This document shows positions 24,972-36,161 of a stretch of 64,000 nt of DNA, piece by piece. The notes beneath the pieces are model-generated. The model was not told where the DNA came from. It did not search any database and was given only the letters and a program-made list of their open reading frames with translations. The translations under genes and the position numbers were made by a program. Location: the NCBI RefSeq assembly GCF_000092245.1, contig NC_014166.1, forward strand, positions 1,488,001-1,552,000, in the 5' to 3' direction. The DNA is from Arcobacter nitrofigilis DSM 7299 (lineage in GTDB: Bacteria; Campylobacterota; Campylobacteria; Campylobacterales; Arcobacteraceae). Numbering within the stretch: position 1 is the first letter of the stretch; each line of letters opens with the position of its first letter.

Positions 24972-26759
24972 ATGAATTTGTTCAAGCATATTATATTTAG
25001 GTTTTTTATTTTACTTACTATATTGGTTGTTTATTTATTTTTTAATTACTCTGAGCCTCTTAATAAAAAGTTTGAAGTCTATTATTTTAGTGACAAATTA
25101 TCAAATATGACATATAGTGATATAATAAAAGTAAAATTTGTTGATAAAACTACTAATAATTTTTCATTAGGGTATATAAAAAATAATGTATGGTTCAAGT
25201 TTAAAATTAATAAAGCTAAGAAAGAATTAATACTTGATTTAAATGAGTATAATTATGAGAGTGCAGTTCTTTATTATTATAATACAAAAGGTAAGTTAGT
25301 AGAAAATGAAAAAAAACTTACTAATAGTATTAAAAATAGAGATATCCCTTCAAGTAATATAATTTTTAAAATAAATAATCTTAAAGACAATGAATTTGTT
25401 TATCTAAAGTTAAGAAGTAATTATTCAATTGTTGCAAATATTCAAATATATGATAAATTTGAATATATTTTTATACATAATATGAATATTAATACATTGA
25501 TTATATTATTTATTTCTATTACTCTTATATTATTAATTATAAGTCTATTTTTATCGTTTATATTTAAAGATAAAGTTCTTTTATATTTTGCATTTTTATG
25601 TGGGACTTATATGCTTTATTTTATTAGTAGTAGTGGAGTATACATTTATTTAAATTTAGGATATTTGCATAATATATTTTGTTATTGTCCCTTAATCGTT
25701 ATTATTAGTTTATTATTATTTTCTTCTTCATATCTTAATATTAAAAAACATTTACCCTTTATGTATCTTATATTTAATATTTACATAAGCATAATACTTT
25801 TATTAATTGTATGTTCTATATTTCATATATATGATGCTTTTATAAGTGATATTAATGGAATTTTAGCTTTAATTACTTATGCATTAATTATTTATTCAAG
25901 TTTTTTAATCTCAAAAAAAATTGATGACAATAAATATATTAAATACTTTATGTGGGTAAATATCTTAGTTTTTATTAGTCTTTTATTTTTTGAATCTTTC
26001 TTATTTGGCCTTTTAGAATATACAATTTTCATCAGGTATGGTTTAATTTTTTCATTGACCATAAAAATTGTGGTTTTAGCTTTTTTATTGATTAAATATA
26101 TTATTGAAAAAGAAAATAAAATAAAAATGAAAGATATGGAAGATATAAATTTTTATAATAATTTAGTAATGAAAGAGATGAATCATCGAATAAAGAATAA
26201 TTTTCATTTTATTATGTCAGTTCTTCATTTAGAGAATAAAAAAAAGCAGTATTCAGAGACTGTATATTTAGAATTGATTTCTCGAATTAGTTCTTTTTCT
26301 TCAATGCATGAACAACTTTATTTAACAAATGATAAGAATGTGTCTATTTCAGAATATTTAAGTGCTATAACTAATGATATAAAAAATATATATGTTAATT
26401 TTCAAGGATTAAAAATATCACAAAATATAGATAGGAATATAAATTTACATTATGAATATTTTTTGTATTTAGGGGTAATTTTAAGTGAGCTAATTACAAA
26501 TAGTCTAAAACATAATAAGGGTGTAGATAAATTGAAAATCTCAATCAACTTAATAGAAGAAAAGAATGAAATGATAAAATTTATTGTAAGAGATAATGGA
26601 CGAGGCTTTAAAAAAGAAGAGAAAAGTAATTCTTTAGGATTAGAAATTATAAAAGACTTTTGTAATAGAATGGATAATTCTTCATATGATTTATTTTCAG
26701 ATAATGGAACAGTATTTTTGTTAAGTTTTAAAAACAAAGAGGATGTTTTATATTTTTAA
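24972..26759 (+). CDS. 7TMR-DISM-type sensor histidine kinase (HisKA_2)
   Basis: The 595-residue kinase has an N-terminal anchor, an extracytoplasmic beta-rich domain (~35-165, like 7TMR-DISMED2), seven closely spaced membrane helices (~173-375) and a cytoplasmic kinase. The kinase H-box is EMNHRIKNNF with phospho-acceptor His405, the HisKA_2 type. The ATPase has the N-box ELITNSLKHN, DNGRGF and a GLEIIKDF lid segment. Family members of the DISM group are thought to sense small ligands, often carbohydrates. A response regulator gene follows 203 bp downstream on the same strand, so the two form a probable two-component system. The adjacent tpsBA genes are its likely targets. ATG at 24972 is preceded by AAAGG. 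Confidence 0.88.
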   Translation: MNLFKHIIFRFFILLTILVVYLFFNYSEPLNKKFEVYYFSDKLSNMTYSDIIKVKFVDKTTNNFSLGYIKNNVWFKFKINKAKKELILDLNEYNYESAVLYYYNTKGKLVENEKKLTNSIKNRDIPSSNIIFKINNLKDNEFVYLKLRSNYSIVANIQIYDKFEYIFIHNMNINTLIILFISITLILLIISLFLSFIFKDKVLLYFAFLCGTYMLYFISSSGVYIYLNLGYLHNIFCYCPLIVIISLLLFSSSYLNIKKHLPFMYLIFNIYISIILLLIVCSIFHIYDAFISDINGILALITYALIIYSSFLISKKIDDNKYIKYFMWVNILVFISLLFFESFLFGLLEYTIFIRYGLIFSLTIKIVVLAFLLIKYIIEKENKIKMKDMEDINFYNNLVMKEMNHRIKNNFHFIMSVLHLENKKKQYSETVYLELISRISSFSSMHEQLYLTNDKNVSISEYLSAITNDIKNIYVNFQGLKISQNIDRNINLHYEYFLYLGVILSELITNSLKHNKGVDKLKISINLIEEKNEMIKFIVRDNGRGFKKEEKSNSLGLEIIKDFCNRMDNSSYDLFSDNGTVFLLSFKNKEDVLYF

Positions 26760-26833
26760 AAACTTTTAAATAATACGGCAGTATTAAGATAAAAAGGAGG
26801 TATTATTTTAAAATAAAACATTGATAACAATCT

Positions 26834-26870
26834 TGTTGATTTTGTGTTAATTCTATGTTAAGATTGTTAA
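26834..26870 (+). promoter_or_regulatory. TGTTAA repeat array upstream of the response regulator
   Basis: TGTTGA (26834), TGTTAA (26845) and TGTTAA (26856) are spaced exactly 11 bp apart, with a further TGTTAA at 26865 (9 bp on). Exact helical-repeat spacing is the signature of tandem OmpR/PhoB-type binding. The array is ~95-130 bp upstream of the regulator start and suggests autoregulation. Confidence 0.55.
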
Positions 26871-26962
26871 ATATGTTTTGTAAAATAGATAAGTTTATAA
26901 AATTTATCTTGTAATAAATAAATTATTTTTAAGTAATTTTAATAATATAATTAGGAACTAAA

Positions 26963-27670
26963 ATGAGTTATAACATGAATATTTTGATTGTAGAAGATGA
27001 CTTAATTGCTTCGATGTATTTAGAGTCAATACTTAATGAATTGAATTACAAAAATATTTTTAAAGCAGATTCTTCACAAAATGCATTGGAAATTGTATCA
27101 AACTATAAAATCGATTTAACGCTTATGGATTTGGATATTAAAGGTCCCTTAGATGGTATAAAAACTTCAAAATTGTTAAATGAGAAATATTCTATTCCTA
27201 TTATATTTGTTACAGGAGAAAAAGGTGTAGATGTTATAATTGATACTTTATGTACAAATATTTTTGGCTATATTACTAAGCCCTTTGAAAAATGTAGTTT
27301 TCTTGCTCCTTTTAAAATTGCTATAAAAAAAATTGAAGAAAGTAAGTTTCAAAATGCAAAAGATCTATTAAAAAGAGAAAAAAGTGGTATTTTAGATTTA
27401 TCTTACGGATATAAATTCAATATAAATAAAAACACATGTTATTTAAATGGTATTCCAATTAACCTGACAAAAAAAGAATTAGATTTATTAAAAATATTGG
27501 CTTTAAATATTAATTCAAACTTGTCATATGAGACAATAAAAGAAAATATATGGCAAAAACAAGATATCGCTGATTCTACATTAAGAGACCTAGTCTCTAG
27601 ATTAAAAAAGAAATTACCAGAATTAGCAATTGAAAATATATCTAGTATAGGCTATATTTTAAAAAATTAA
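26963..27670 (+). CDS. OmpR-family response regulator
   Basis: The 235-residue protein has a CheY-like receiver: an acidic pair in NILIVEDD, the likely phospho-acceptor Asp56 in LMDLD, Thr in VTGEK and the conserved Lys in TKPF. A winged-helix output domain follows (~135-233, with LTKKELDLLKILA and the wing SSIGYIL). It is paired with the kinase encoded immediately upstream. The long kinase-regulator gap contains a repeat array that fits this protein's own operator. A similar array in inverted orientation precedes tpsB, so control of two-partner secretion is likely. Its output domain resembles that of the stand-alone winged-helix protein at 24.3-24.7 kb. Confidence 0.9.
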   Translation: MSYNMNILIVEDDLIASMYLESILNELNYKNIFKADSSQNALEIVSNYKIDLTLMDLDIKGPLDGIKTSKLLNEKYSIPIIFVTGEKGVDVIIDTLCTNIFGYITKPFEKCSFLAPFKIAIKKIEESKFQNAKDLLKREKSGILDLSYGYKFNINKNTCYLNGIPINLTKKELDLLKILALNINSNLSYETIKENIWQKQDIADSTLRDLVSRLKKKLPELAIENISSIGYILKN

Positions 27671-28054: not shown

Positions 28055-29671
28055 ATGTACAAAATAATATTTATATCAATTTTAGTCTTTTCTTTTCTAC
28101 ATGCAAAGACAGTAGATGATGTAATCAAAAAACAAAACCTCTTTGAAAATCAAAAAAAAGTATATAAAGACAAAGAAAAACAAAAAGAAGAGAAAATCTT
28201 CCATTATGATATTAAAAAACCTAAAGTTGAAGAGAAAGACAAAGGTAAATGCTTTAATATTATAAAAATCAATGATCAAAATATCACTCTTTTATCTCAA
28301 AAAGCAAAAGCAAAAGTTTTTAATAAATATCTTAATAAATGTAATACTATTAATGATATAAAAAATCTAATAAATGATGTAACATCTTTATATATTGATA
28401 AGGGTTATATTACTTCAAGAGTATATATAAAAGGTCAGAATATTAAAGATGGTATCTTAACTTTACATGCGGTAGAAGGTAAAATTGAAGATATTAAATC
28501 AAAAAAACTTTACACAAAAAATTCTTTTTTTAGATTAAAAGGTGATTACTTAAACTTGAGAGATTTAGAAGTAGGTATCGAAAATTTAAATCGTCTTAAT
28601 TCTAATAATGCAAAATTAAATTTAAAGCCAGGTAGTAATACAGGATTAAGTATTGTTGAAATAGAAAATGAAACTTCATCTCCTATTAGTGGTTATATTA
28701 CTTATAATAATTTTGGTACAGATCCAACAGGGAAACATCAATTTGGCTTAAATGCTAATATTGATAATCCAATTGGATTTAGCGATCTTTTCTCTATAAA
28801 TTACAATACAACCAATAAACAAAACACACAAAATAATTCAATAGGAGATAGCTATAGCTACTCTTTTCCAATTGGTAGATTATTGTATACATTAAGTTAT
28901 TCAGAATCAAGCTATAAGCAAGTAATACCAGCAAATTTCAATAAATTTTATTCAAAAGGTAAAAATAAAAATTATACTCTTGATTTAAATTATAAACTCT
29001 TTCACAATCAAAATAATAAAATCAATCTTGGATATTTTATAAATTATTATGTCAGTAAAAATTATATAAATGAAGCCTTAGTAGAAACATCAACTTATAA
29101 CCTATCAAAAACAGGATTTAAACTAAACTACATTTATCAATCACAAACTTTTCAAATGTATACAACCCTGCAACATGTAAGAGGTGTACATTGGTTTAAT
29201 AATGAAAATCCAACAGCTCTTGATGATAAATTCAAAGTTTTTATCTTTGATAATTATATTTCAAAAAGTTTTGATAATTTTAGATATTCCTTAGACTTTC
29301 ATGCTCAAAGATCTTCTCAACAACTATTCTCTGTTAATCAAATAAGTATTGGTGGTCCATATAGTGTTAGGGGATATAAAGAAGATGGATTAAGTGGTAA
29401 TAGTGGATATTACTATAGAAATGAATTAGCCTACATAATTAATAATGAAACTTTAAAAAACTTAAGCTTGACTCCTTATATAGCCTTAGATGGTGGATGG
29501 GTTAGAAAACAAGAAGATACAGATGGTGGGAATCTTTTAGGGAAAGCTATCGGATTAAAAGCAAGTTATAAAAAGCTCTATTATGACATGTATTATTCTA
29601 AGGCTATAAAAACATATGATGTTACAGAAAATAAAAACTTTCTTGGATTTAATGTAAGTTATAGGTTCTAA
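28055..29671 (+). CDS. TpsB-type two-partner secretion transporter (ShlB/FhaC family)
   Basis: The 538-residue Omp85-superfamily protein has a signal peptide (MYKIIFISILVFSFLHA), a charged linker, a POTRA_2-like region with two cysteines (~residues 70-145, including GYITSRVYI), a second POTRA and a C-terminal 16-strand barrel. The barrel contains the family VRGY motif (IGGPYSVRGYKEDGL) and ends in the outer-membrane signature VSYRF. It exports TpsA proteins across the outer membrane. The TpsA gene lies 176 bp downstream and is the obvious substrate. The length matches the family norm of ~550 residues. Confidence 0.93.
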   Translation: MYKIIFISILVFSFLHAKTVDDVIKKQNLFENQKKVYKDKEKQKEEKIFHYDIKKPKVEEKDKGKCFNIIKINDQNITLLSQKAKAKVFNKYLNKCNTINDIKNLINDVTSLYIDKGYITSRVYIKGQNIKDGILTLHAVEGKIEDIKSKKLYTKNSFFRLKGDYLNLRDLEVGIENLNRLNSNNAKLNLKPGSNTGLSIVEIENETSSPISGYITYNNFGTDPTGKHQFGLNANIDNPIGFSDLFSINYNTTNKQNTQNNSIGDSYSYSFPIGRLLYTLSYSESSYKQVIPANFNKFYSKGKNKNYTLDLNYKLFHNQNNKINLGYFINYYVSKNYINEALVETSTYNLSKTGFKLNYIYQSQTFQMYTTLQHVRGVHWFNNENPTALDDKFKVFIFDNYISKSFDNFRYSLDFHAQRSSQQLFSVNQISIGGPYSVRGYKEDGLSGNSGYYYRNELAYIINNETLKNLSLTPYIALDGGWVRKQEDTDGGNLLGKAIGLKASYKKLYYDMYYSKAIKTYDVTENKNFLGFNVSYRF

Positions 29672-29847: not shown

Positions 29848-32800
29848 ATGAAAATGTTAAAACAATCATTAAGTATAGTAGTTAGTTTTAGTTTAATTTT
29901 TAATCAATTTCTATATGCAGCAGATTTACCTATAGAAGTTGATAAAAATGCAGCAGCTAAACATCAAGCTTCTTTAGATAAAGCACCCAATGGTGTACAG
30001 ATTGTTAATATTGTAAATCCTAATTCAAATGGAATGTCTCACAATAAATTTAAAGAATATAATGTAAACCCAAGTGGACTTATTTTAAATAATTCAAAAA
30101 AAGTAGTCAATACTAAATTGGGTGGATATATTTCATATAATCCAAACCTTACTAATAATGCAAAGATGATTCTTAATGAAGTAACAGGAACAAATAAATC
30201 TTTATTAAGGGGTTATTCAGAAGTCGCTGGAGCAAAAGCAGATGTAATTGTAGCAAACCCTAATGGTATTACTGTAAATGGTGGAGGTTTTATAAACACA
30301 AATAAAGCAACACTAACAACAGGAAGACCTTATTTTTTGAATGGTTTTGTAAATGGCTTTGATATTAATAGTGGAAATATATTAATAGAAGGTGATGGCT
30401 TTAATACAACTAATATAGATAAAGTAGAACTTTATTCAAAAGCTCTTCAAATAAATGCAAAATTTTATGCTAATAATCTAAAAGCGGTAACAGGGAATAA
30501 CAAAATAGATTTAGCTGGAAATGTTACAAGTAATGGAACAGTTGAAAGCGGAGTATCTATTGATTCATCACTTTTAGGGGGAATTTATGCAAATAGAATA
30601 GAACTAGTAAGTACCAATAAAGGTGTTGGAGTAAATTTACCACCTGAAGTATATGCTCAAGATAGTTTGAGTTTGACTTCTGATGGATTGATTTCCTTAA
30701 AAATAGTAAATGCAAATAATAATATTGATATTACTTCAAATTCATCAAGTATTGAAACTAATAAACTTTTTGCTGATAGTATTAAACTTGATTCAAAAGA
30801 GAGCATAGTAAATAATGACATGATTGTTTCAACATCAAAATTAGATATTAAATCAAAAAATTTAATTAATAAGAATTTAATTATTACAGGAGTTGATAAG
30901 GATTTAAATTATATTAATGATAAAAAAGCAAATTTATTAATAGATAGTACAAATATAACAAATACAGATGCTTCTATTATTTCGCAAGGTAATATAGATA
31001 TCACAAGTGGAATTTTCACGAGTGATAATGGTAATGTAAATACAACTAACGGAAATATTAAGTTTAAAACAAATAGTTTACTTGTGGAGAATTCAAAAAT
31101 CACATCATCTAATGATTTAACAATAGATGTAATGAATGATCTTATATTAGATTCAACTAATACAATAGAAGCATTGAATGATTTAACTCTTAACGTTTCA
31201 TCTATGACTAATAATACTATATTAAAAGCTAATAATAATTTAAATATGACAGCAACCAATATTTTTACTAATAATGCAACAGGTGAACTAAGAGCAAAAA
31301 ATATAGATTTAACTATTGATGAACTTATAAATAAGGGCTTAATCTCTTCTTTACAGAATATGACACTAAAAACAACTTCTTTAACAAATACAGGAGGAAT
31401 CTCAAGTTTAAATAATGATAATAATGGTTCAGAACTTTCAATCTATTCTGATAATTTAACAAATTACAATACAATTTTTTCAAATGATAATATTAATTTA
31501 TATATTAAGAATGATTTAACTAATAAAACAGATTCAGCACAAGCCTCTGTTGATTATGCAAGAATAATGGCTAACAATTATTTAAATATTCAAGGTAATG
31601 ATTCTAAAACTTTAAGAACTCAAAATATTACTAATGACAAAGCTATCATTTCTACACTAAAAAATGACATAAATATATATTCTGATAATTTTACTAATAT
31701 TGGTACTATACCTGAGTTAGAAGATTTAGGAACAACTGTAGAATCAACGGGTGGAAGTGATATGATGGCTGGGAAAACTACTTGTTACAATGGAAATAGT
31801 CATTGTGAAAGTGCAACAACTTCTTGGTGGATGAGAGTTGTTGGATTTAGAGGAGTGGAAACATCTGTTTGGAATAATTTCATGAACAAATATCCAGTTT
31901 TAAAAACTCTTTCTGATGGGAGAGGAGGTACATGGGCAAATATGTACAATGATGGAGGGCATGAGAGTGAAGAAACTTGGACTATTGCACTTGTAGAAAA
32001 AACAGGTCAAAAGTTAAAAGAAAATCAAGATTTAGTAAAGGGACAAGTAATTTCAGCAAATAATCTTAATATAGATTCTACAAATATAACTAATGAATAT
32101 TCCCTATTAAAAGCTAATAATAATATTACTTTAGATGGTACTAATCTGTATAATATTGGAGCAAAACTTATAGAGAAACAGTTATTTAAACTAAGATATT
32201 ATAAATGTGGTGGAGATCGTTGTTCTGGGCAGGAATCATTAATGTCAATTCAAACTCATACAGAAAGTGTAGTAACAGGAACTGTACCTTCTGTAATAAG
32301 TGCAGGAAATGATGTTACAGGAAATTTAAGTAGTTTATTAAATGAATCAATTAAAGATACAACAACTACTGTATCTTTTTCAGATATTGATACAAAGCTC
32401 GTAGAAAAAAAAGATGAAGCAAAAAAACAAGAGTATACTTTGCCCACTAATGATTATGGATTATTTATTACTACTCAAAAAACAGCTACTCAAAAATATT
32501 TAATAGAATCTAATCCTTTATACGCAAGTTATAATAACTTTATTGGGTCTGATTATATGCTTGGAAAACTAAATTATAAGCCAGAAAATACTATCCGACG
32601 GTTAGGTGATGCGAGATATGAAAATCAATTAGTTAGAGAGGCTATATTAAAGAAAACAGGAGTAAGTAGAGGTATAAATATTGATGATAATTCAGAATAT
32701 TTAAGATTAATGAATAATGCTATTACTTTATCTAGCCAATTGAACTTAGAAGTTGGAACAGGACCAACAAAAGAGCAATTAGCAAATTTAAAGGAAGATA

Positions 32801-35730
32801 TTGTTTGGCTTGAAGAAAGAATTGTTAATAATGAACCTGTATTAGTACCTATAGTTTATTTGGCGAGTGATTATAACCAAGCAGCAGGAATTCAAGCTGG
32901 AGGTGAAATTAAGTTAAATATAAAAGATAAAGTTGTTAATTCAGGAGATATGAAATCAAAAGGTAATTTAACTATTACATCTAAAAGTATTACCAATGAT
33001 TCTGGAGATATAAAATCAGATGCTCTAGTAAATCTTACTTCTCAAAATGACTTAGTAAATAAAAATGGAGCTTCTATTGTTGGAGATAGTGTAAAACTTG
33101 TTTCCACTGAAGGATCAGTTATAAATGATAGATTTTATAAAAAAGTAAATGAAGGTTCATCAAATGATAGATTCACATATACCTTAGTTGGAAAAAGAAG
33201 TAATATTGAATCAAAAACTGGTGATGTTAATATTGAAGCAAAAAAAGATATTAAAAATTTAGCTTCAAATATAAAATCAGGAAAATCAGTTTATTTAAAA
33301 TCTACTGATGGAAATATTGACTTAAAAACAAAAGAGATAGAAGAGTCATATAATTTTGTTAGAAGTAGTGATAAATATTCAAAGGGTAAAAAAATAAGAC
33401 ATGAGCAATCAGGTATTGTTGCTGGTGAAAACATTGTTATAGATTCTGGTAAACAAGCAAATATTGAAGCGGCTAATTTAAATGCTAATAATCAAATTTC
33501 TATAAATGCAAAAGATGATGTAAATGTGACTGCTGTAAATGATCTAGATTATACTAATGTAAAAAATAAGATTAAAAAAAGTTGGGGAAGAAGTATTTCT
33601 AGTCAGGATATGAAATACAAAGAAAAAGTAGTTTCTTCAAATATAAATGCAAAAGATATATCTATTAAATCGGATAAGGATATAAACCTAGAAGCAGTAA
33701 ATATAAATGCAAAAGAGAATAAAATTGCTGATGCAGGAGGAACTCTAAATATTTATGCAAAAGAATATAAAGAAGGTGAACTTCATCAATCTTCTAAATC
33801 TTCTTTTGGTGGTTTGATTAAAAGTGAATATAAATATGAAAAAAATAATTTAAAAATAAAAGCTTCTGAAATTACAGCAAAAAATATGATTTTAGATGCA
33901 AAACAAATTAATATACAAGCATCAAAAATTAAAGCAGATGAAGCAAATATAACAACAAATATTTTAAATCTTATTTCTTCTAAAGAGAGCCTTTATGAAA
34001 ATGAATTTTCTAATAAAGGTGGAATCTTAACTGCAACAATAGAAAATAAAGGAAAAATAAAAGAGACAATAGTACCCGCAACAATTGAGGTAAATAATAA
34101 ATTAATATTTAATCAAAAAGATTTAACAGATCAATTAAGTTCAGATAACTTAATAAAAACTTTATCATCTCAAGGTAATCTAACAGCAGAGCAAATAAAT
34201 CTTGTAAAACAAGTAGTAAATGATAAACAATGGCATACAAAAACAACAACATTAAGTGGAGTTGGTTCATTAATAATTCAAGCAATTGTTACATATTTTA
34301 CTGCAGGTGCAGGAACTGGATTGTCAGCAAGTATAACGAAAGGAATATCAAATGTTGCACTAAAAGCGGCAACACAAGCAGCAATTAAAGCTGTAGTAGC
34401 ACAAGCAACAACACAACTAGTAAGCGGAGCAATAACAGGAAATGGTTTAAAATTAGATTTAAAAGCGATAACAAAAGGAGCTATTACGGCTGGAGTTTTA
34501 AGCTATGCTAATGGATTAGTAGATAGCTCAATGGGCTTACAAAATGTAAAAGTAGCAGATATGAGTACCGCTCAACAATTTGAAAAAGGTGTAGCAAATA
34601 CAGTAGTAAAAAGTGGAGTTAATTCTGCTTTATATGGAACTGATTTTAAAGATGGTTTAAAAACAGGATTAGTAACAGATATATCAAATGTAGGATTTAA
34701 ACTAGTAGGTGATACTTCTATGCAACAATACCTAGGGAAAGATAACCAACTCTTTAAAGATGGAGGCTTAGGAAAAGTAGCACTTCATAGTTTAGTAGGA
34801 GGAGCTACAGCTGCATTGCAAGGAAAAGATGTAACAGCAGGAATGGCAAGTGCAGGAGTAAATGAGTTAGCTTCGCCTCTACTTGAAGGAATGAATAATT
34901 CAACACAGCAAATCATTTCAGGTGTTATAGGAGGATTAACAGCTGGATTAGTAGGAGGTGAGAGTCAAATAAGTACTGGACAGACTATAGCTCAAAGTGG
35001 AACTGAATATAATAGACAACTTCATCAAGATGAGATTAAATTCATAAAAGGTACAATAAGTAAATTTAAATCAATTAATAAAGATAAAACACTAATAGGA
35101 AGAGAGATTGACTATAGTGATAGTAAAGCTCAAAGGTTACTAATGACAGCCGCTAAATATATGGTAGATGAAACTTCACAAAATCAATTTAATGATAATA
35201 CAAAATATGTAAATCAAAATGAGTTTTCAAAAGCTGAATTACAAACAGCAATTAATTATTTAAAAAGTAGTTCCAATGGATTAGCTTTTGTAGATACCTA
35301 TAAAGAAAGTATGCTAGGACAAAAGTTTTTTACATCAACACCTGAACAATTCAAAGATAGTAGTTGGACACCTGATAATATAACAGGGTTAGGAGACCAA
35401 GGAATAGGACCATTTGTTCCAGTAGGAAGAGTAGGACAAACTTTAGGAACTGGTATAAAAGAAATAAGTCCTAGTGTTTTTAAAAGTGGAAAAATACTTG
35501 TTGGAAAAACTGGACAAGTTTATGATGATATAGGACGAAAAGTATATATAAAACAGCAAGAAATTCCAGTTGTAAAACATTTTGGAGCTGATGAAATTAA
35601 TGATATATTTAATGAGAGTATGCCTGCTACTACCAAAATTGGTCAATTATATGGAACAGGTGTAGGAATTGGAAGTAAACTGTATCAAATGTACATAAAT
35701 AGTCAAAATGGTAATAATCCTAATGAATAA
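29848..35730 (+). CDS. TpsA exoprotein with CdiA/FhaB-like architecture
   Basis: The 1,960-residue protein starts with a signal peptide (MKMLKQSLSIVVSFSLIFNQ) and a TPS secretion domain carrying the hallmark NPNL (in YNPNLTNN) and NPNGI (in VANPNGITVNGGGF) motifs. Long beta-helical FHA-type repeats follow. An interrupted region (~630-810) contains two cysteine pairs (646/653 and 787/792). A second FHA-like repeat region leads to a hydrophobic Ala/Gly-rich DUF637-like pretoxin segment (~1465-1700). A variable C-terminal region of ~240 residues begins near YNRQLHQDEIKF (~1720). No VENN motif is seen. This is the plan of contact-dependent inhibition toxins. The C-terminal toxin class was not recognised. 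A small membrane protein gene overlaps the 3' end, as an immunity gene would. Confidence 0.88.
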   Translation: MKMLKQSLSIVVSFSLIFNQFLYAADLPIEVDKNAAAKHQASLDKAPNGVQIVNIVNPNSNGMSHNKFKEYNVNPSGLILNNSKKVVNTKLGGYISYNPNLTNNAKMILNEVTGTNKSLLRGYSEVAGAKADVIVANPNGITVNGGGFINTNKATLTTGRPYFLNGFVNGFDINSGNILIEGDGFNTTNIDKVELYSKALQINAKFYANNLKAVTGNNKIDLAGNVTSNGTVESGVSIDSSLLGGIYANRIELVSTNKGVGVNLPPEVYAQDSLSLTSDGLISLKIVNANNNIDITSNSSSIETNKLFADSIKLDSKESIVNNDMIVSTSKLDIKSKNLINKNLIITGVDKDLNYINDKKANLLIDSTNITNTDASIISQGNIDITSGIFTSDNGNVNTTNGNIKFKTNSLLVENSKITSSNDLTIDVMNDLILDSTNTIEALNDLTLNVSSMTNNTILKANNNLNMTATNIFTNNATGELRAKNIDLTIDELINKGLISSLQNMTLKTTSLTNTGGISSLNNDNNGSELSIYSDNLTNYNTIFSNDNINLYIKNDLTNKTDSAQASVDYARIMANNYLNIQGNDSKTLRTQNITNDKAIISTLKNDINIYSDNFTNIGTIPELEDLGTTVESTGGSDMMAGKTTCYNGNSHCESATTSWWMRVVGFRGVETSVWNNFMNKYPVLKTLSDGRGGTWANMYNDGGHESEETWTIALVEKTGQKLKENQDLVKGQVISANNLNIDSTNITNEYSLLKANNNITLDGTNLYNIGAKLIEKQLFKLRYYKCGGDRCSGQESLMSIQTHTESVVTGTVPSVISAGNDVTGNLSSLLNESIKDTTTTVSFSDIDTKLVEKKDEAKKQEYTLPTNDYGLFITTQKTATQKYLIESNPLYASYNNFIGSDYMLGKLNYKPENTIRRLGDARYENQLVREAILKKTGVSRGINIDDNSEYLRLMNNAITLSSQLNLEVGTGPTKEQLANLKEDIVWLEERIVNNEPVLVPIVYLASDYNQAAGIQAGGEIKLNIKDKVVNSGDMKSKGNLTITSKSITNDSGDIKSDALVNLTSQNDLVNKNGASIVGDSVKLVSTEGSVINDRFYKKVNEGSSNDRFTYTLVGKRSNIESKTGDVNIEAKKDIKNLASNIKSGKSVYLKSTDGNIDLKTKEIEESYNFVRSSDKYSKGKKIRHEQSGIVAGENIVIDSGKQANIEAANLNANNQISINAKDDVNVTAVNDLDYTNVKNKIKKSWGRSISSQDMKYKEKVVSSNINAKDISIKSDKDINLEAVNINAKENKIADAGGTLNIYAKEYKEGELHQSSKSSFGGLIKSEYKYEKNNLKIKASEITAKNMILDAKQINIQASKIKADEANITTNILNLISSKESLYENEFSNKGGILTATIENKGKIKETIVPATIEVNNKLIFNQKDLTDQLSSDNLIKTLSSQGNLTAEQINLVKQVVNDKQWHTKTTTLSGVGSLIIQAIVTYFTAGAGTGLSASITKGISNVALKAATQAAIKAVVAQATTQLVSGAITGNGLKLDLKAITKGAITAGVLSYANGLVDSSMGLQNVKVADMSTAQQFEKGVANTVVKSGVNSALYGTDFKDGLKTGLVTDISNVGFKLVGDTSMQQYLGKDNQLFKDGGLGKVALHSLVGGATAALQGKDVTAGMASAGVNELASPLLEGMNNSTQQIISGVIGGLTAGLVGGESQISTGQTIAQSGTEYNRQLHQDEIKFIKGTISKFKSINKDKTLIGREIDYSDSKAQRLLMTAAKYMVDETSQNQFNDNTKYVNQNEFSKAELQTAINYLKSSSNGLAFVDTYKESMLGQKFFTSTPEQFKDSSWTPDNITGLGDQGIGPFVPVGRVGQTLGTGIKEISPSVFKSGKILVGKTGQVYDDIGRKVYIKQQEIPVVKHFGADEINDIFNESMPATTKIGQLYGTGVGIGSKLYQMYINSQNGNNPNE

Positions 35731-35923
35731 AGAAATAATAATAGGTTTTTTTATAGTATTAATAATTGCTTCATCAGTTAAAATATTTTTTAATTATAAT
35801 ATAAATATTAATATAATACATTGGTCTATTGATTCTATTTTAATTAATATTTATATATTGACTGGTTCATTTTTAATGATATTAGGATTAGTATTTCTTT
35901 CAAAATATTTAAATAAAAAATGA
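35723..35923 (+). CDS. Small two-span membrane protein, candidate immunity protein
   Basis: The start ATG at 35723 lies inside the last codons of tpsA (ATGAATAA overlap), so translation is probably coupled; an in-frame ATG at 35708 is possible but less likely. The product has 66 residues and two hydrophobic spans (EIIIGFFIVLIIASSVKIFF and INIYILTGSFLMILGLVFLS), and it ends KYLNKK. Its position directly after a CdiA-like C-terminus is where immunity genes are found. Membrane localisation would fit a toxin acting at the inner membrane. No sequence family was recognised, so the role is inferred from position only. Confidence 0.6.
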   Translation: MNKEIIIGFFIVLIIASSVKIFFNYNININIIHWSIDSILINIYILTGSFLMILGLVFLSKYLNKK

Positions 35924-35940: not shown

Positions 35941-36161
35941 ATGTTAAAAGTAATATTAGATATTATTTTTAAGATATTAGTCGTATTAGGATTTATTTTA
36001 TTTTTGAAAGTATTTTTTCATTGTTAGGACTTCCTTTTTTTACAAGATGTGATGATTGGTCAAATCATTTTCATGAAAAATCTGTTCAAATGATTAAAGA
36101 TGGTATAGATAATAAATTTCAAGAATGGATAATGGATAATTGTAGTCAACTTCCTAAATAA
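35941..36161 (+). pseudogene. Frameshifted small membrane-anchored protein gene
   Basis: An ATG at 35941 with AGGAA upstream opens a frame starting MLKVILDIIFKILVVLGFIL, a membrane span, which stops at 36025-36027. Just before that stop is a run of six T (36012-36017). With seven T the frame would continue through LPFFTRCDDWSNHFHEK to the stop at 36159-36161, giving ~73 residues. The gene is thus either broken by a one-base loss or switched by slippage in the T run. It follows the candidate immunity gene and could be a second, orphan immunity gene. Function is unknown. Confidence 0.5.

Follow-up and report, generated by a model that had tools for sequence, protein, structure and literature searches.

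The window, a 64,000-nucleotide stretch of Arcobacter nitrofigilis DSM 7299 (contig NC_014166.1), raises the question of whether the end of a large TpsA protein and the small membrane-protein gene that overlaps it form a toxin/immunity pair and, if they do, where the toxin would act. The explanation that we favor, and consider probable as a whole, is a CDI-type locus, tpsB-tpsA-immunity, with the inner membrane as the site of toxin action. The features of the locus are listed below.

28055–29671, plus strand: tpsB, outer-membrane transporter of the ShlB/FhaC type with two POTRA domains, 538 aa (Pfam ShlB, E 3e-88; POTRA_2, 9e-22; POTRA_3, 1.5e-16).
29848–35730, plus strand: tpsA, CdiA-like effector of 1960 aa in a single open frame (Pfam TPS domain at residues 32–283, E 7e-45).
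34369–34854, plus strand: DUF637 pretoxin region, residues 1508–1669 (Pfam E 2.6e-12).
35008–35049, plus strand: boundary motif YNRQLHQDEIKFIK, in place of VENN (13 of 14 residues kept in genome G072).
35008–35358, plus strand: entry-type helical domain, residues 1721–1837 (common to cassettes with different toxins by partial matches; helical in the AlphaFold model).
35359–35727, plus strand: putative toxin domain, residues 1838–1960 (found again beside small membrane genes in other genomes).
35593–35643, plus strand: conserved tail motif EINDIFNESMPATTKIG (alignment A3).
35723–35923, plus strand: candidate immunity gene, 66 aa, two membrane spans, 8-nt overlap with tpsA (same position in every relative).

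The TpsB transporter gene adjoins the gene for an effector with a TPS domain, a hallmark of CDI loci; the hemagglutinin repeats of TpsA are weak in Pfam. The first-pass annotation had described a DUF637-like pretoxin region lacking a VENN marker, and Pfam and a motif search confirm both points. The Burkholderia-type motif ELYN is absent from TpsA together with the E. coli-type VENN, which is not decisive because Pseudomonas CDI systems have different motifs (PMC4725963). The DUF637 systems of Pseudomonas resemble this locus in having DUF637 before a variable C-terminus and a small immunity gene directly downstream, but their boundary motifs are WVHN, VENN, LYVT, DAMV, and NEALV (also printed NEVLA), compared to YNRQLHxxEIxFI here (PMC4725963). 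Directly upstream of tpsB, a 7TMR-DISM histidine kinase and a response regulator (window 24972–27670) may regulate the locus. Five further TPS-domain matches are found in the source genome (G000:C1 near 3160187, 2063780, 2072357, 96052, and 1227633).

Comparison with relatives located the boundary of the exchanged segment. The TpsA backbone before the C-terminus is 61% identical in genome G102 and 63% identical over 340 residues in G072, up to YNRQLHQDEIKFI. Almost all of this motif is kept in G072, and beyond it the identity is 21% in a gapped alignment. Such abrupt C-terminal divergence past a conserved peptide motif, on a conserved backbone, is characteristic of CDI effectors. After YNRQLH, the G072 protein ends in an Endonuclea_NS_2 nuclease (E 1e-26), and its downstream gene encodes a soluble 140-aa protein that weakly resembles the YezG immunity family (E 0.003, below the cut-off). 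Toxin and downstream gene are both exchanged after YNRQLH in G072, as expected for CDI, and YNRQLH stands for VENN. A C-terminus conserved in all relatives and a small gene not linked to it was the pattern named beforehand as evidence against the pair; G072 replaces both. The two other genomes of the genus have neither the C-terminus nor the pretoxin region, so the tpsA locus is accessory. We did not detect a relative of the C-terminus in the plasmid records searched.

The small open reading frame starts with an ATG at 35723 and ends at 35923; an alternative start at 35708 would give 71 aa. The two hydrophobic spans, the length of 66 residues, and the overlap of exactly 8 nt with the tpsA stop (ATGAATAA) agree with the original description of the gene, as judged by the coordinates and hydrophobicity. 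The protein has no Pfam family match. It is predicted to be an N-in/C-in hairpin, a topology read by us from the charge distribution rather than by a prediction program, and the span counts given throughout rest on a hydrophobicity cut-off and are crude. A frame of this kind could also have arisen by chance or encode an unrelated membrane peptide, behind a TpsA that is an adhesin: adhesins are numerous among TpsA proteins, and the extreme AT-richness of the DNA (13.9% GC in this frame) favors hydrophobic frames. However, a full-length open frame arose at this composition in 10 of 20,000 shuffles and 17 of 20,000 Markov sequences, roughly 1 in 1000–2000 trials, and third positions have the lowest GC (6%), which is the pattern of a coding frame. 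The rarity of chance open frames and the coding-like third positions indicate that the frame is not a by-product of AT-rich DNA. We also surveyed 51 ORFs of at least 150 aa, taken from the window and from two further regions of its genome. A small gene with at least two spans lies directly downstream of two of them, the TpsA described here and another toxin end from its family, and downstream of none of the 49 controls. The arrangement is identical in every relative, and the second copy in the source genome has the same 8-nt overlap. These data make it highly improbable that the small frame has no immunity function. Behind the immunity gene, a 28-aa hydrophobic frame runs into a 46-aa frame that is shifted by one base (window 35941–36161), possibly a broken second small gene; the piece at 36024–36158 has no relative among 104 genomes of the family.

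Profiles A2 and A3 were used to find other copies of the toxin end. The window type occurs in at least 10 Campylobacterales genomes from at least four families, often as orphan cassettes, and the copies are in G102, G089, G316, G109, G508, G462, G561, G327, and G452, with the second copy in the source genome. A small membrane-protein gene directly follows every window-type copy; the partner in G452 has four spans, and the immunity frames of G561 and G327 look broken. The hallmark of the family is a tail near the C-terminus, E-I/V-x-N-D-I-F-N-x-S-x-P-x-x-T-x-x-G in alignment A3. The second source-genome copy (G000:C1:2449190-2449363, minus strand; L071 6179–6655 and 5992–6186) is a short fragment without DUF637 that overlaps the gene of a 64-aa two-span partner, and it looks like an orphan cassette. 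In G102, orphan toxin/immunity cassettes form long arrays (L016 9329–13126 and L017 2318–7566) in which every toxin end has a membrane-protein gene directly behind it and these genes differ in size. The hairpins of many relatives continue into a zinc-ribbon-like tail (CxxC...CxxC), which the 66-aa protein of the window does not have. Partners with this putatively cytoplasmic tail occur in L016, L017, L018, L019, L045, L073, and L075, where the tail is near-identical within a genome and the membrane half varies; the tail may serve as recombination homology. Marginal search matches in G123 (flagellin), G035 (integrase-like), G349, G369, G444, G280, and others were judged by their context to be chance.

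The similarities of toxin tails and of membrane halves were compared across 12 pairs. They correlate with a Pearson coefficient of 0.55 (Mantel p 0.0006) and a Spearman coefficient of 0.38 (p 0.013), both uncorrected for genome relatedness. Three G102 cassettes are ~93–100% identical in DNA before the tail, ~20–65% across the tail and membrane half, and ~75–97% in the zinc tail, and the G508 and G462 partners have zinc tails that are 95% identical and membrane halves that are 22% identical. By these patterns, toxin tail and hairpin are exchanged together, as a single unit of specificity with recombinable flanks on either side. The G102 cassettes are a natural experiment: between near-identical flanks, toxin and immunity vary jointly over a short stretch, so that specificity could be narrowed down to about 55 residues of the toxin and a single membrane hairpin. 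The directly downstream gene changes together with the C-terminus, as in CDI, and the joint variation of segment and small gene that had been proposed as a check is seen between genomes, in the G072 swap, the 12-pair correlation, and the G102 cassettes. On these sequence comparisons, the conserved backbone with its swappable cassette, the linkage in relatives, and the co-variation support the candidate contact-dependent pair, and the TpsA C-terminus and the 66-aa protein are very probably toxin and immunity protein.

The C-terminus itself has two parts. Searches with it showed that its first 120–150 residues are joined to several different ends across the order: ends with a soluble downstream gene (L042, one copy in L043, and L046) and larger ends with three- or four-span genes (another L043 copy, L047, and L048). 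AlphaFold models this part as helical, with pLDDT mostly 83–98 in the first 120 residues. An analogy with CdiA C-termini and their entry domains (PMC11630599) suggests that residues 1721–1837 are the domain that takes the toxin to the inner membrane of the target, and the remainder is also assigned as toxin domain by analogy. The first-pass annotation had placed the last ~240 residues outside any toxin class that it recognized. That stands as far as family matches go, since Pfam has no match beyond residue 1669, NCBIfam has no significant one in the last 240 residues, and neither the C-terminus nor its tail has one in Pfam, NCBIfam, PHROG, or PDB; the length does not stand, because the first ~120 of these residues are the shared entry-type domain, which leaves about 120 residues at the end for the toxin. 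The toxin domain is modeled with pLDDT mostly under 50, a second run led by a G102 member likewise left it unmodeled, and the best match in a fold comparison of the C-terminal model with the PDB had an E of about 1, which is meaningless. We found no strongly hydrophobic segment or helix in it with a 19-residue Kyte-Doolittle window: its best mean is 0.69, compared to 0.56 for a nuclease control and 1.76 for EC93. The larger ends of L047 and L048 (G412 and G452) are glycine-rich, share the entry-type domain, have three- to four-span partners, and are nearer to classical ionophores in hydrophobicity, with a best 19-residue mean of 1.34 in L047.

We infer from this organization how delivery, toxicity, and neutralization would proceed. 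TpsB would export TpsA, and the entry-type helical domain would carry the toxin as far as, or through, the inner membrane of the target. The ~120-residue toxin domain would have the cytoplasmic membrane as its site of action, and collapse of the membrane potential would be the simplest mechanism. The inner-membrane hairpin, probably with both ends cytoplasmic, would recognize the toxin tail inside the membrane and protect siblings. The immunity protein of the window is only a membrane hairpin, and neutralization would therefore have to take place in the membrane. The partner of the window-type toxin end is a membrane protein everywhere; the nuclease on the same backbone in G072 has a soluble partner. 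These observations make the membrane the likely target, and for depolarization as the action the balance is about even.

The main rival to depolarization is an attack on an inner-membrane protein. The toxin of a CDI-type pair could be an enzyme or binder directed at a particular inner-membrane protein or at a periplasmic or lipid substrate, with the two-span protein shielding the target or trapping the toxin and no ion path formed. The hydrophilicity of the toxin domain, about as hydrophobic as a soluble nuclease, fits this reading, as do the glycine zipper that is not kept among relatives and the strand-rich look, by eye, of some relatives' sequences upstream of the tail. It is made rather unlikely by a tail alignment without a standout catalytic motif, by the absence of enzyme-family matches in Pfam, NCBIfam, PHROG, and PDB, and by the partners, since ionophores are the best-known setting for immunity proteins so small and wholly membrane-embedded (PMC11630599). 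A closer relationship to those ionophores, with the toxin as a distant CDI type 10 alpha-helical ionophore of the EC93 kind, is less probable still. EC93 CdiA-CT/CdiI is the closest working parallel: it shares TPS delivery, a C-terminus of entry-type and toxin parts, a two-span immunity protein, an overlap of a few nucleotides between the genes, and highly polymorphic co-varying pairs. The CdiI proteins of CDI ionophores are hairpins of 72–100 residues with both ends in the cytoplasm (PMC11630599), that of EC93 has 79 aa as read from plasmid pCP127, and the immunity protein of the window, with its two spans, falls slightly under this range at 66 residues. A glycine-rich stretch, IGQLYGTGVGIG, lies near the C-terminus of the window's toxin, and type 10 groups share merely about 20–39% identity (PMC11630599). 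However, we did not detect profile similarity to the EC93 C-terminus (hhalign probability 0.1%, one type 10 sequence compared), the ~120 residues do not contain hydrophobic helices, the GxxxGxxxG spacing is not conserved among relatives, and the low-confidence models do not contain a five-helix bundle. Given the missing profile similarity, the low hydrophobicity, and the unconserved glycine zipper, we do not place the toxin in the EC93 family, from which it also differs in lacking VENN, in its shorter toxin domain, in the NDIFNxSxPxxTxxG tail, and in the zinc-ribbon tail often carried by the immunity proteins of relatives.

The depolarizing toxin that we favor also has a counterpart in the CDI type 14 / Ntox25 beta-barrel ionophores, which share CDI delivery and depolarization as the candidate action (PMC11630599); Ntox25 is not among the Pfam matches of the window's C-terminus. 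Its immunity protein resembles Imm-CdiI of the polymorphic-toxin catalogue, a two-helix membrane protein beside a CdiA toxin, but Imm-CdiI is listed for gammaproteobacteria (PMC3482391) and the window's protein does not match any Pfam family.

The toxin belongs to a new family within a known kind of system, CDI. The toxin family, the entry-type domain, and the boundary motif could not be matched to anything described in the databases and papers compared. CDI is little described in Campylobacterota, and our literature search found no paper joining Epsilonproteobacteria, CdiA, and CDI. The nearest named match is an Epsilonproteobacteria MAG contig (QMKX01000040.1), in agreement with the placement in Campylobacterota made at the outset. 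The family has no database entry, and YNRQLH is usable for spotting such cassettes. More tentatively, and with less than even confidence, the family may represent a separate class of CDI toxins that are membrane-directed but distinct from type 10 and Ntox25. The NDIFNxSxPxxTxxG tail and hairpin immunity proteins, often with a zinc-ribbon tail, would define this class, which Campylobacterota would carry on TPS effectors and, in a single genome, on an Hcp protein of type VI secretion. This Hcp protein, in L086 (G359:C1:96475-96777), is recognized by Pfam at E 1e-20, and its C-terminal extension ends in a similar tail, ALNDILNPSMPASNP (profile E 0.0085). Its end is overlapped by a 64-aa two-span frame followed by part of a second copy, and the extension is possibly the same kind of toxin on another delivery system.
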